NCBI RefSeq assembly: GCF_020076305.1
Contig: NZ_JAIQXE010000003.1
Coordinates: forward strand, 434,001-498,000
Reading direction: 5' to 3'
From: Flavihumibacter profundi
Lineage (GTDB): Bacteria; Bacteroidota; Bacteroidia; Chitinophagales; Chitinophagaceae
Length of the DNA: 64,000 nt
The translations under genes were made by a program, and so were the position numbers. The notes beneath the pieces are model-generated. The model did no database searches, was not told the origin of the DNA, and saw only the letters and a program-made list of their open reading frames with translations. Shown here piece after piece: positions 3,917 to 6,827 of this stretch. Each line of letters opens with the position of its first letter. Positions within the stretch are counted from its first letter, which is position 1.

Positions 3917-4909
3917 TTATCCTAACAACCCTTTCTGAAGCAGGTATTCTGCAATCTGTACAGCATTGGTTGCCGCACCTTTTCGGAGGTTATCACTTAC
4001 GATCCACATATTCAGGGTATTTGGCTGAGACTCATCCCTTCTCAAGCGGCCGACAAAAACTTCATCTTTTTCGTGTGCGTCCTTCGGCATCGGATATTTT
4101 GCGTTGGCGGGATCATCCACCAATACTACTCCGGGTGCCGCTGCCAATAAGGATTTTACTTCGTTTATGTCAAACTCATTGTCGAACTCCACATTTACGC
4201 TTTCACTATGTCCGCCCATCACCGGAATACGGACTGTTGTAGCCGTAACACGAATACTATCGTCTCGCATGATCTTTTTGGTCTCGTTCACCATTTTCAT
4301 TTCTTCCTTCGTATATCCATTATCGAGGAATACATCAATTTGCGGAATTGCATTCATATCAATCTGGTATTTATATGCCATTTCGCCTTCAATACCCTGA
4401 CGCTCATTCATTAACTGGGTAACCGCCTTTACGCCGGTTCCGGTAACACTCTGGTAAGTAGACACCACAAGTCTTTTGATATGGTATTTCTTATGCAAAG
4501 GATTCAGAGCAACCACCATTTGTATAGTGGAGCAGTTCGGATTAGCGATGATTTTATCGTTTACAGTTAATGCATCTGCATTAATTTCAGGAACGACCAG
4601 TTTTTTCGTGGGGTCCATTCTCCAGGCAGATGAATTATCGATGACCGTAATGCCAGCTTCAGCAAATTTTGGCGCCCATTCAAGTGAGGTGCTGCCCCCT
4701 GCTGAAAACAAAGCCACGGCTGGTTTTGCTGCAATGGCATCAGTCATGCTTACTACTTTGTATTTTTTACCCTTGTATTCTACTTCCTTTCCCACTGATT
4801 TTTCAGAGGCTACGGGGATCAGCTCGGTAACAGGGAAATTGCGTTCTGCCAGAACCTGTAACATTTTGGTGCCTACTAGTCCGGTGGCACCCACAACTGC
4901 GACTTTCAT
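3917..4909 (-). CDS. asd: Aspartate-semialdehyde dehydrogenase
   Basis: Asd reduces L-aspartyl phosphate to aspartate semialdehyde with NADPH, the branch point to lysine/diaminopimelate, threonine, methionine and isoleucine. From the ATG at 4909 the protein has 330 residues, standard length. The NADP-binding GATGLVG loop is at residues 7-13, the catalytic cysteine is C126 in NPNCST, and the base H234 lies in GGHSESV. An upstream in-frame GTG at 4984 would read through a terminator hairpin and is rejected. The mRNA leader contains a short ORF and an intrinsic terminator, described separately, so expression is probably controlled by attenuation. It is transcribed alone and converges with the DUF2461 gene. 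Confidence 0.96.
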   Translation of the reverse strand: MKVAVVGATGLVGTKMLQVLAERNFPVTELIPVASEKSVGKEVEYKGKKYKVVSMTDAIAAKPAVALFSAGGSTSLEWAPKFAEAGITVIDNSSAWRMDPTKKLVVPEINADALTVNDKIIANPNCSTIQMVVALNPLHKKYHIKRLVVSTYQSVTGTGVKAVTQLMNERQGIEGEMAYKYQIDMNAIPQIDVFLDNGYTKEEMKMVNETKKIMRDDSIRVTATTVRIPVMGGHSESVNVEFDNEFDINEVKSLLAAAPGVVLVDDPANAKYPMPKDAHEKDEVFVGRLRRDESQPNTLNMWIVSDNLRKGAATNAVQIAEYLLQKGLLG

Positions 4910-4931
4910 TTTATTTTTCTTGCTTTTAATT

Positions 4932-4961
4932 AAAAAAAAGCCTTCCCGTTTGGGAAGGCTT
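4932..4961 (-). terminator. Intrinsic terminator in the asd leader (attenuator)
   Basis: On the minus strand, AAGCCTTCCC and GGGAAGGCTT form a 10-bp stem with an AAAC loop, running directly into a T tract at 4939-4932. It lies 22 bp upstream of the asd start. The next gene upstream is divergent, so no minus-strand gene exists for it to terminate except asd's own transcript. This makes a regulatory role likely. Confidence 0.8.
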
Positions 4962-4989
4962 GAGTCTATTTTTTGAACATACACTACAA

Positions 4990-5052
4990 TTATACACCTT
5001 CCTGGTTGGGGAGCTGTTTCTTAATCTTAGTTGTATGTTTCATCATTGTCAT
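4990..5052 (-). CDS. Putative attenuator leader peptide for asd
   Basis: A 20-codon ORF, ATG at 5052 and TAA ending at 4990, reads M-T-M-M-K-H-T-T-K-I-K-K followed by Q-L-P-N-Q-E-G-V. Eleven of 20 residues are Met, Thr, Lys or Ile, the end products downstream of Asd. Codons for Q-E-G contain GGAAGGT (5002-4996), which can pair over 7 bp with GCCTTCC in the 5' arm of the terminator (4959-4953). A ribosome stalled on the Thr/Lys/Ile codons would leave that segment free to form an antiterminator. A ribosome reaching the stop codon would cover it and let the terminator fold. Translation is not demonstrated. Starts at 5046 or 5043 are alternatives. Confidence 0.5.
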   Translation of the reverse strand: MTMMKHTTKIKKQLPNQEGV

Positions 5053-5058
5053 GGATCA

Positions 5059-5090
5059 CGAAATTAAGCACCCGGGTTTTTTCACCCAAA
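5059..5090 (-). promoter_or_regulatory. Candidate promoter for the asd leader
   Basis: On the minus strand TTTG (5090-5087) is followed after 20 bp by TAATTTCG (5066-5059), a 7-of-8 match to TAnnTTTG at the normal Bacteroidota spacing. Transcription would begin within a few bases of the leader-peptide ATG at 5052. Confidence 0.45.
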
Positions 5091-5138: not shown

Positions 5139-6827
5139 ATGCTCCGGAATTACCTGTTTCTGATATTTTTGATATCTGCTGGAACGCATTCTGCACAAGC
5201 GTTTCAGGTAGTTATAACTGAATTGCTGCCAGACCCTGTTCCGGCCATTTCATTACCACCAGAAGAATTTATTGAACTAACAAATGTTAGTGGCAAAATT
5301 ATTGATATTTCCGGCTGGCTGCTCTCCAACGGCCGGACAACCGCAGTTTTCCCGGACAGCACTTTTTTACCACCGGACAGCATATTGATCGTTTGCAGTA
5401 CCCGCGCATTCAGCCAATACCTCAGTTATGGCAGAACAATCGCGCTAACAAAATATCCGGTACTTTCAAATGACGGAGATACAATCCTGCTTTTCGACAG
5501 GAACCAAAACCTCATTCATGCAGTTGCTTATTCCATAAAATCCTATGGGGGAGTTAATACAAATGGCCGAAGCCTGGAGATGATCGATTTGAAAAAGGCC
5601 TGCAGCATTAAAGGAAATTGGCAGGCCAGTGAGTCTGAGGCTGGTGGCAGCCCCGGTAAACCCAGCCTGGCCGGCATTTCACGAGATAAAGAAACAGGTT
5701 TCAATTTACTTTACGGGTTCACCAAAGGGAATGATAAACTGGTATTAGTTTTTGATGATGTTATCGATGCCGCGTCTGTCGCCAATATAAAGGCAATTGA
5801 ATCGGAGCCATGGCTTGATTTTACCGGGCTAACCATTGATGGCCCATTACACAACCAACTGGTATGCCAGCTTGCAGGTCCGCTTCTACCCCACAAGGTA
5901 TATGCCCTGCAGGCCAACAGTATCAGGTCATGCCAACTTTACCCGCCGGGTAATACCCGGCGGGTAAAGTTGGGTTTAGCCGACTCGATAGCAACTGGTA
6001 TGGTTATCAATGAGTTGCTTTTTGATCCACCCCCAACCGGCTGCGATTACGTTGAATTATACAATACAGGTCAGCAGATAATCGATTTGCAACAACTAAA
6101 ACTAGCTAACCGGAATAACCGGGGTGAAATCAGTTCATCAAAATCAATCAGCACCAGTCCGAGATACTTCTGTCCAGGAGAATACATTGTATGCACTGAA
6201 AATAAAGGCTGGCTCAGCAAACAATACCTGGTAAAAGACCCCATTACTATATTAGAATTGGAAAAACTTCCCTCCTGGCCTAACGAAACTGGTTCGGTAG
6301 TGCTATTAGATGGTAACAACAAAATCCTGGATGAATTAAATTACCAGTCTGGCTGGCAGTTTGAACTACTGGGAAATAAGGAAGGCATAGCCCTGGAAAG
6401 GAGAAATCCAACAGGCAAAACACAGGACAGGGACAATTGGTTTTCTGCAGCTATGAATGTGGGTTATGGTACGCCGGGTTATGCAAATTCACAGTTTACG
6501 GGAAATACATTTAATGGAATTAAAATTTGGCCAGAACCAGCTCTTTTTTCACCGGACGGCGATGGCAAAGATGACTTTTGCCATATCCGCTATAGTTTTA
6601 ATGAACCCGGTTATGTTCTCACCACACTTATTTATAACCGAAATGGAATCCTGGTGCGAAGCCTCGCCAGGAATGGTCTTTGTGGTATTCAGGGCCAGTT
6701 TTCCTGGGACGGTAAAGACGATAAAAAAAATCAGTTACCACCAGGTATATACATAGCGGTAACTGATATTTTTTCGGTAAATGGCAAAACCCGGCGATGG
6801 CGGCATGCTATTACCCTTGTGTATTAA
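5139..6827 (+). CDS. Secreted lamin-tail-domain protein with FlgD-like C-terminus
   Basis: A 562-residue exported protein with a signal peptide (about residues 1-21, cleavage near AQAF). Two lamin-tail-like domains are visible: one from about 24 to 125 (VVITELLPDP, EFIELTNVSG, GWLLSNG) and a second from about 284 to 440 (MVINELLFDPP, DYVELYNTG). The last 100 residues resemble a FlgD/gliding-associated immunoglobulin-like unit (FSPDGDGKDD, FSWDGKDD, PPGIYIAVTDI). Such proteins are typical surface or extracellular proteins of Bacteroidota; the exact role is unknown. The linker between the two lamin-tail domains contains a perfect long palindrome, listed separately. It is divergent from asd and its stop overlaps the convergent kinase stop by 4 nt. 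Confidence 0.82.
   Translation: MLRNYLFLIFLISAGTHSAQAFQVVITELLPDPVPAISLPPEEFIELTNVSGKIIDISGWLLSNGRTTAVFPDSTFLPPDSILIVCSTRAFSQYLSYGRTIALTKYPVLSNDGDTILLFDRNQNLIHAVAYSIKSYGGVNTNGRSLEMIDLKKACSIKGNWQASESEAGGSPGKPSLAGISRDKETGFNLLYGFTKGNDKLVLVFDDVIDAASVANIKAIESEPWLDFTGLTIDGPLHNQLVCQLAGPLLPHKVYALQANSIRSCQLYPPGNTRRVKLGLADSIATGMVINELLFDPPPTGCDYVELYNTGQQIIDLQQLKLANRNNRGEISSSKSISTSPRYFCPGEYIVCTENKGWLSKQYLVKDPITILELEKLPSWPNETGSVVLLDGNNKILDELNYQSGWQFELLGNKEGIALERRNPTGKTQDRDNWFSAAMNVGYGTPGYANSQFTGNTFNGIKIWPEPALFSPDGDGKDDFCHIRYSFNEPGYVLTTLIYNRNGILVRSLARNGLCGIQGQFSWDGKDDKKNQLPPGIYIAVTDIFSVNGKTRRWRHAITLVY
5933..5973. repeat. Perfect 18-bp inverted repeat inside the lamin-tail gene
   Basis: Left arm 5933-5950 and right arm 5956-5973 are exact reverse complements separated by TAATA; the outer T and A of the spacer extend the symmetry to 19 bp per arm. 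The element is GC-rich compared with the gene around it and is translated in frame in the linker between the two lamin-tail domains. The function is unknown. Confidence 0.9.

Follow-up and report, generated by a model that had tools for sequence, protein, structure and literature searches.

The asd gene of Flavihumibacter profundi is preceded by what is very probably (about nine chances in ten, as judged from comparative sequence analysis) a ribosome-mediated transcription attenuator that senses a shortage of lysine (and threonine). The gene is common to the synthesis of lysine, threonine, methionine and isoleucine. A sequence-only reading of the window (the whole stretch of 64,000 nucleotides that was analysed) had proposed an attenuator at this position and had named, as the way to check it, a search for the leader ORF and its pairing strands in related genomes. 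That comparison was carried out, and relatives have both the leader ORF and matching strands (61 genera), which supports the attenuator reading. A third helix, an anti-antiterminator formed by 5042-5022 with 4992-4974, was absent from the earlier description; with this helix the element constitutes a full three-state attenuator.

Anatomy of the asd leader

The features of the element are listed in Table 1. All coordinates from the sequence-only reading that were checked, for the leader ORF, the terminator and the spacing to the asd ATG, agree with those given here, as does the position of the Lys codons at 5022-5017. The downstream gene had been taken to be asd, and its product scores 431.4 bits against TIGR01296, above the cut-off. 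The leader ORF begins with an ATG at 5052 (- strand), 6 nt past the -7 box, and ends with a stop codon at 4992-4990; 11 of its 20 codons specify Met, Thr, Lys or Ile. From the end of the T tract to the ATG of asd (4909) there are 22 nt. The predicted transcript folds into helix 1:2 plus the terminator (z = -5.2). Pairing of GGAAGGT (5002-4996) with GCCTTCC (4959-4953), which had been proposed from the letters, is borne out, since the segment 5004-4952 alone folds at -14.2 kcal/mol (z = -4.1).

Table 1. Features of the asd leader of F. profundi, in window positions
Feature	Position	Strand	Basis
TTTG, -33 element of a Bacteroidota sigma-A promoter	5087..5090	-	sequence
-7 element TAATTTCG (consensus TAnnTTTG), 20-nt spacer to TTTG	5059..5066	-	sequence
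Predicted transcription start, 2 nt ahead of the leader ATG	5054	-	box position -12 to -5
Leader ORF, 20 codons, MTMMKHTTKIKKQLPNQEGV, predicted leaderless	4990..5052	-	20 codons in 14/14 genus genomes, synonymous changes
Predicted sensing codons K-H-T-T-K-I-K-K	5017..5040	-	ribosome stalled here leaves 5002-4996 free in the ribosome model
Region 1, 5' strand of anti-antiterminator helix 1:2	5022..5042	-	fold and swap tests
Region 2 (3' part), 3' strand of helix 1:2	4974..4992	-	fold
GGAAGGT, 5' strand of antiterminator 2:3, within the Q-E-G codons	4996..5002	-	fold and swap tests
GCCTTCC, 3' strand of the antiterminator and part of the terminator 5' arm (region 3)	4953..4959	-	
Intrinsic terminator: 10-bp stem 4961-4938, loop of 4, T tract to 4932	4932..4961	-	
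asd, aspartate-semialdehyde dehydrogenase, downstream gene	3917..4909	-	NCBIfam TIGR01296 and NF011456 over cut-off

The whole architecture (TTTG, 19-21 nt, TAnnTT(T/C)G, 4-10 nt, ATG, an ORF of 8-40 codons and a terminator) was used as a search pattern on both strands of the window. This pattern, which was fixed after the element had been seen, has one match, the asd leader, and none in 50 first-order random windows.

The sequence-only reading had also named a candidate promoter. A promoter is present, but the sigma-70 model is wrong for this phylum and the Bacteroidota box fits better. The only sigma-70 candidate near the element is weak (9 of 12 positions) and falls within the leader ORF (5052-5024), and the Bacteroidota box is preferred to it.

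A palindrome, GGGTGAAAAAACCC (5087-5074, - strand), shares sequence with the -33 element and takes up part of the promoter spacer. Of the genus genomes, 14/14 have TTTGGGTGAAAA and 12/14 the inverted repeat GGGT-ACCC. As a 14-nt pattern with one free base, the palindrome has one other match in the genome; it is possibly an operator.

Conservation in the genus and family

All 14 asd genes of the genus with upstream sequence have the 20-codon leader, the GGAAGG strand and the terminator; one further genus genome (L004), which is without upstream sequence at this gene, was left out. In these 14 genomes leader codons 1, 5, 6, 12, 18 and 19 are invariant, codons 7, 8, 11, 15 and 20 show mostly synonymous change, and codon 10 is Thr (eight genomes) or Ile (six). 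The leader ORF appears from this pattern to have end-product codons under coding constraint.

In the family Chitinophagaceae the element was found ahead of asd at 91 of the 121 loci examined, comprising 70 in the training alignment and 21 recovered by a covariance model (R1) built from those 70 sequences. R1 was run on the 51 remaining loci, and the 21 matches score at least 53.7 bits; six of them come from close congeners of training sequences. Where R1 gave no match (30 loci), 21 loci have an Asd that is 66-73% identical to that of the window and nine have one with 75-83% identity, and the element was found at none of the examined loci with an Asd identical at 73% or less. Automatic criteria accepted 84 of the 121 loci. 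Seven loci that fit R1 and failed these criteria (L062, L064, L067, L075, L076, L077 and L085) were counted and entered no other test, the leader starts of L023, L044 and L097 were assigned by hand, and, of 138 family genomes that lie outside the genus and have an Asd match, 31 did not enter the locus set.

Among the best 80 named asd loci of a larger set, 24 match R1 at 48 bits or more, at least three of which (L128, L133 and L181) duplicate genomes of the family set. The titles of these 24 name Chitinophagaceae genera or the family, Chitinophagales, unclassified Bacteroidota, and Sphingobacteriia or Sphingobacteriales. Niastella yeongjuensis and Sediminibacterium roseum are among the species with the element. 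Six named loci lacked an R1 match although their titles suggest the family: L172 (84 nt of upstream sequence only), L176, L207, and L178, L180 and L187, which are MAGs titled Chitinophaga pinensis. Loci of Pedobacter, Mucilaginibacter, Sphingobacterium, Dyadobacter, Hymenobacter, Algoriphagus, Flavobacterium and Polaribacter among the best 80 gave no R1 match, Cytophagales and Flavobacteriaceae being likewise negative. When R1 was run on 198 genomes of the order (family included), all matches of 57 bits or more lay within Chitinophagaceae, and the best match outside the family was weak (45.5 bits). In one Chitinophagales MAG a second weak match (L170:4216-4339, 26.4 bits) lies about 2.3 kb downstream of the asd element and may be due to chance.

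That the asd leader element is real and conserved is beyond reasonable doubt. A terminator standing so closely ahead of a gene could serve an antisense or upstream transcript, as an ordinary terminator or insulator to which the leader ORF is incidental. This is extremely improbable here: the long ORF to the right (5139-6827) is on the opposite strand and points away, no long ORF of the minus strand ends nearer than 6824, and promoter, ORF, antiterminator and terminator together accompany asd across the family and recur as a unit with dapA.

Matching of helix strands within species

For 61 elements, one from each genus, the pairing energy of strands belonging to the same element was set against that of strands swapped from genus to genus, a test for which no alignment columns are needed. 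The swap tests, and the ribosome model and codon-placement count described below, used 61 of the 84 elements, ten second genus members and 13 genus loci being left out. The cleanest test is that of helix 1:2, as this helix was not used in selecting elements; its own strands pair at -14.4 and swapped strands at -11.5 (z = -9.3). The corresponding values are -13.8 and -12.3 (z = -7.1) for helix 2:3, mildly favoured by the requirement that elements reach -7 kcal/mol, and -17.2 and -13.8 (z = -15.9) for helix 3:4, a test biased in favour because terminators were chosen as stable hairpins. For each of the three helices none of 5,000 permutations reached the observed value, and two control combinations gave z values of 0.1 and 0.2.

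Strands were also exchanged with the nearest relative (mean identity 0.68). Own strands were again better matched for helices 1:2 (p = 9e-6), 2:3 (p = 0.007) and 3:4 (p = 8e-6), the controls giving 0.87 and 0.94. Helix 2:3 was the weakest in this comparison, with 32 elements better, 24 worse and five ties. RNAalifold on the plain alignment recovered only seven terminator pairs and not helix 1:2, a miss that we attribute to misregistered columns and a sliding register. The leaders have a mutually exclusive antiterminator and anti-antiterminator, with strands matched within species.

Ribosome position and the placement of codons

In the ribosome model RNA is hidden as far as 12 nt beyond the first base of the codon in the A site, RNA behind the ribosome is omitted, and the RNA ends ahead of the 3' arm of the terminator. 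For the window the model expects 6.9-7.0 pairs in helix 2:3 while the ribosome stands on codons 3-13, and 0 either in its absence or when it stands anywhere between codon 16 and the stop; the Lys and Thr codons from 5 to 12 all fall in ribosome positions that give about seven pairs. Across the 61 elements a ribosome on the best Lys/Thr codon gives a mean of 7.34 pairs and one on the stop codon 0.00, a zero that arises because the model hides that strand, the point being that the stop is positioned so that the strand is hidden. Without a ribosome the mean is 3.69 pairs, many relatives being predicted to form the antiterminator in this state. The model predicts an OFF state without translation for the window and for some of the relatives only, and an OFF state everywhere would not be required.

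Relative to the start of the antiterminator strand, the stop codon lies at -2 to +6 nt in 24 of the 84 elements and at +10 to +19 nt in the other 60; at 7-9 nt past that start it is found in none of the 84, under a filter that allowed -15 to +40. Such placement is as expected if only the position of the ribosome counts. It bears on the idea that the leader peptide or its translation acts otherwise, as a small protein in trans or through reinitiation at asd, with attenuation secondary. A peptide acting in trans has a precedent in Sinorhizobium meliloti (PMC7298713). Given the stop-codon placement, and a C-terminal half that varies in both length and sequence, a role of this kind at the asd leader is very unlikely.

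Lys and Thr codons together account for 361 of the 689 codons of the open stretch and for 32 of the 344 that come after it (p = 2e-46, 61 elements). Lys codons could arise by chance in an A-rich leader; their drop after the open stretch argues against this but is also compatible with RNA constraints. The His 6 codon and the Arg codons of relatives do not specify pathway products. The sequence-only reading had the leader respond to lysine, threonine, methionine and isoleucine. The codons best support lysine and threonine, the case for isoleucine and methionine being weaker, and lysine would be the dominant amino acid, with threonine second.

A variant compatible with the main reading is that the leader senses lysine alone, its Thr, Ile and Met codons serving the RNA helix (CATACA) or being due to chance. 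At 239 of 689 codons, Lys is more frequent in the open stretch than any other residue, the codons for H6 to I10 in the window's leader fall in a strand of helix 1:2, and the leaders of dapA, a gene of the lysine branch, keep their Lys codons with half the Thr of asd leaders. Against it, Thr is confined to the open stretch as sharply as Lys (122 of 689 codons, as against 5 of 344 after it), and T7 and T8 are kept as Thr through synonymous changes in 13/14 and 12/14 genus genomes, respectively. Sensing of lysine alone is a possibility to be taken seriously, although a tentative one; joint sensing of lysine and threonine is preferred here.

On this preferred reading, RNA polymerase would start about 2 nt ahead of the leader ATG and a ribosome would initiate at the 5'-terminal AUG. 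When Lys-tRNA (and Thr-tRNA) is plentiful, the ribosome would reach the stop codon and cover GGAAGGT, so that the terminator forms and transcription ends ahead of asd. When lysine or threonine is short, it would stall at codons 5-12 (5040-5017) and break helix 1:2; the free GGAAGGT would then pair with the 5' arm of the terminator, allowing read-through into asd. Without translation, helix 1:2 would form and the terminator would be expected to win in F. profundi.

Related elements at other amino-acid genes

R1 matches were also found ahead of seven dapA genes (TIGR00674) in relatives (L296-L300, L302 and L303), at 60-92 bits. Their leaders have 4.3 Lys and 1.1 Thr codons each, compared with 4.3 and 2.2 in asd leaders (seven versus 84 leaders). 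The best 20 non-asd matches comprise these seven dapA genes, five hisG, one lysA, one aminotransferase, two contig ends with no gene beyond (L301 and L304) and four others (L306, L309, L311 and L313). The last four, at 43-48 bits, look like chance, so that R1 matches below about 48 bits prove little alone; two of the four were scanned for protein families and none was found. With chance-like matches in this range, the lysA, hisG and aminotransferase cases rest on their leaders and not on their scores. Lysine-containing leaders accompany the weaker matches at lysA (L305; TIGR01048; 48.7 bits; leader MSLITSIKTIKTKKPYLYG) and at the aminotransferase, whose substrate is uncertain (L312; 44.5 bits; leader MTRKLHKSKKHLPNR). 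The five hisG genes (TIGR00070) have weaker matches of 42-46 bits.

Within the genus the leaders are His-rich at hisG (14/14), contain WWW at trpE (15/15) and are FYFYFYFF-like at pheA (14/14). Codon identity tracks the gene (His, Trp, Phe/Tyr or Lys/Thr) on one plan, within one genome. Across the class, a short ORF with HH or at least three His codons lies within 450 nt at 13 of 16 hisG loci, by a loose criterion with no chance control and with some ATGs not close to a -7 box.

In the genome from which the window comes, hisG has an attenuator of the same plan (L248, 2260-2040, - strand) with the leader MKQIAQNHYHHFLPSR, whose stop codon TAG lies within GGTAGGC, a strand able to pair with the 5' arm of the terminator. 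The trpE leader MNKNNQNMQWWWHTNSSGVL and the pheA leader MIQPNSFGRFYFYFYFFTGRRPAMLCVGSTK of this genome (L266 and L277) each have an ORF and a terminator on the asd plan, and trpE and pheA leader ORFs and terminators of the same plan are also present at L252-L265 and L267-L280.

Other genes were negative. A strict promoter scan of 900 nt upstream of aspartokinase at 30 loci gave no match, a weak negative, as the same scan missed all 15 trpE leaders seen by a looser look. Upstream of ilvB no terminator was found within 500 nt at the 14 loci over the family cut-off, and an ilvB-like locus below it (L295) has a weak terminator and an unremarkable ORF.

Amino-acid genes are often controlled by riboswitches, T-boxes or protein-bound leaders, and a control of this type at asd, whether by a ligand-binding riboswitch, a T-box or a protein-bound leader, would make the ORF a bystander. 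The Rfam family Phe_leader (RF01859) matches 4932-5044 (- strand) below its cut-off (32.2 versus 55 bits). Phe_leader is itself a leader-peptide family, and the match perhaps reflects shared general geometry. An Rfam scan of the window gave no match at the gathering score to a T-box, a lysine riboswitch or any other family. In addition, the leader has about 120 nt, of which half are ORF, and the identity of its codons follows the downstream gene, all of which makes the riboswitch or T-box explanation highly improbable.

Promoter geometry and predicted leaderless initiation

Bacteroidota sigma-A promoters have TTTG near -33 and TAnnTTTG at -7 (PMC7366714), and in Flavobacterium psychrophilum the -7 box occupies -12 to -5 (PMC9723704). 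A box so placed puts the start of the asd transcript near 5054, two nucleotides ahead of the leader ATG, and from this geometry the asd leader is predicted to be leaderless. In the 84 elements the best box at most 15 nt from the leader ATG matches at least five of the six fixed bases in 81, an exact TTTG lies 19-21 nt from the chosen -7 box in 72, and the leader ATG is 4-10 nt past the box in 78. The last count is somewhat favoured by the treatment of ORFs with several in-frame ATGs, for which the ATG with the best box within 15 nt was taken. The sequence-only reading had described the leader as nearly leaderless and thought this unusual; the geometry is as described, but, being common to these 78 of 84 family elements, it is not unusual. 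At hisG the leader ATG lies 6-8 nt past the -7 box in 13 genus cases, and trpE and pheA are similar by eye.

Leaderless mRNAs make up 5.5% of mRNAs in F. psychrophilum (PMC9723704), and about 3.7% of 5' UTRs in Bacteroides thetaiotaomicron are under 10 nt (PMC7366714). If attenuator leaders are leaderless as a rule, they would form a marked exception in a phylum with few leaderless mRNAs.

It is an evenly balanced proposition that Chitinophagaceae, and perhaps Bacteroidia, have a system of leaderless attenuators (asd, dapA, hisG, trpE, pheA and perhaps lysA), in which an ORF at the 5' end would let the pioneer ribosome load at promoter clearance despite little use of Shine-Dalgarno sequences. 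The asd, dapA and possibly hisG elements would then be paralogous modules, with sensing codons exchanged on one RNA scaffold.

Comparison with known attenuators

Much is known of leader-peptide attenuation in Proteobacteria and Actinobacteria. In the trp, his and thr attenuators of Escherichia coli, product codons lie in a leader ORF, three helices exclude one another and an intrinsic terminator precedes the biosynthetic gene. The asd leader shares the product-codon ORF, the three exclusive helices and the terminator, and is a variant of leader-peptide attenuation, a mechanism itself already known. It differs from the E. coli attenuators (with which its sequence was compared through Rfam only) in its predicted 5' UTR of about 2 nt, in its Bacteroidota sigma-A promoter and in governing a common-trunk gene with mixed Lys/Thr codons. 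A lysine riboswitch is present at lysC of E. coli, where ArgP stimulates asd (PMC12925634).

If the attenuator reading is true, the gene common to lysine, threonine, methionine and isoleucine synthesis is under a mixed Lys/Thr codon sensor, and Bacteroidota use attenuation widely, with leaderless leader ORFs. The asd leader would offer a defined system in which to study the coupling of ribosome and transcription without Shine-Dalgarno initiation, and the covariance model R1 finds further such elements.

A paper from 2010 states that leader-peptide systems beyond ermC were unshown outside Proteobacteria and Actinobacteria, to which it added Firmicutes, and its main text contains neither 'Bacteroid' nor 'asd' (PMC2965389). 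Among the matches listed in the open-licence literature, no paper on an asd attenuator was found, and for Bacteroidota there were general clues only. 'Strong clues' of leader-peptide attenuation upstream of amino-acid operons are reported for F. psychrophilum, a member of the same phylum, in which pheA and hisG have conserved 5' elements that match no Rfam family; the promoter and attenuation sections of that account make no mention of asd, dapA or leaderless leader ORFs (PMC9723704).

Two systems from other phyla resemble the asd leader in its predicted 5' end. The trpL leader ORF of S. meliloti begins at the 5' end of the transcript, as is predicted for asd; it belongs to the Alphaproteobacteria and responds to Trp, and its attenuated RNA and peptide also act in trans (PMC7298713). 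The ilvBNC attenuator of Corynebacterium glutamicum differs from the asd leader in being actinobacterial, in its branched-chain codons, in the gene that it governs and in being backed by mutations; it is like the asd leader as predicted here in that transcription starts 1 nt from the leader ATG, translation is leaderless and a three-hairpin model describes its folding (PMC11857589).
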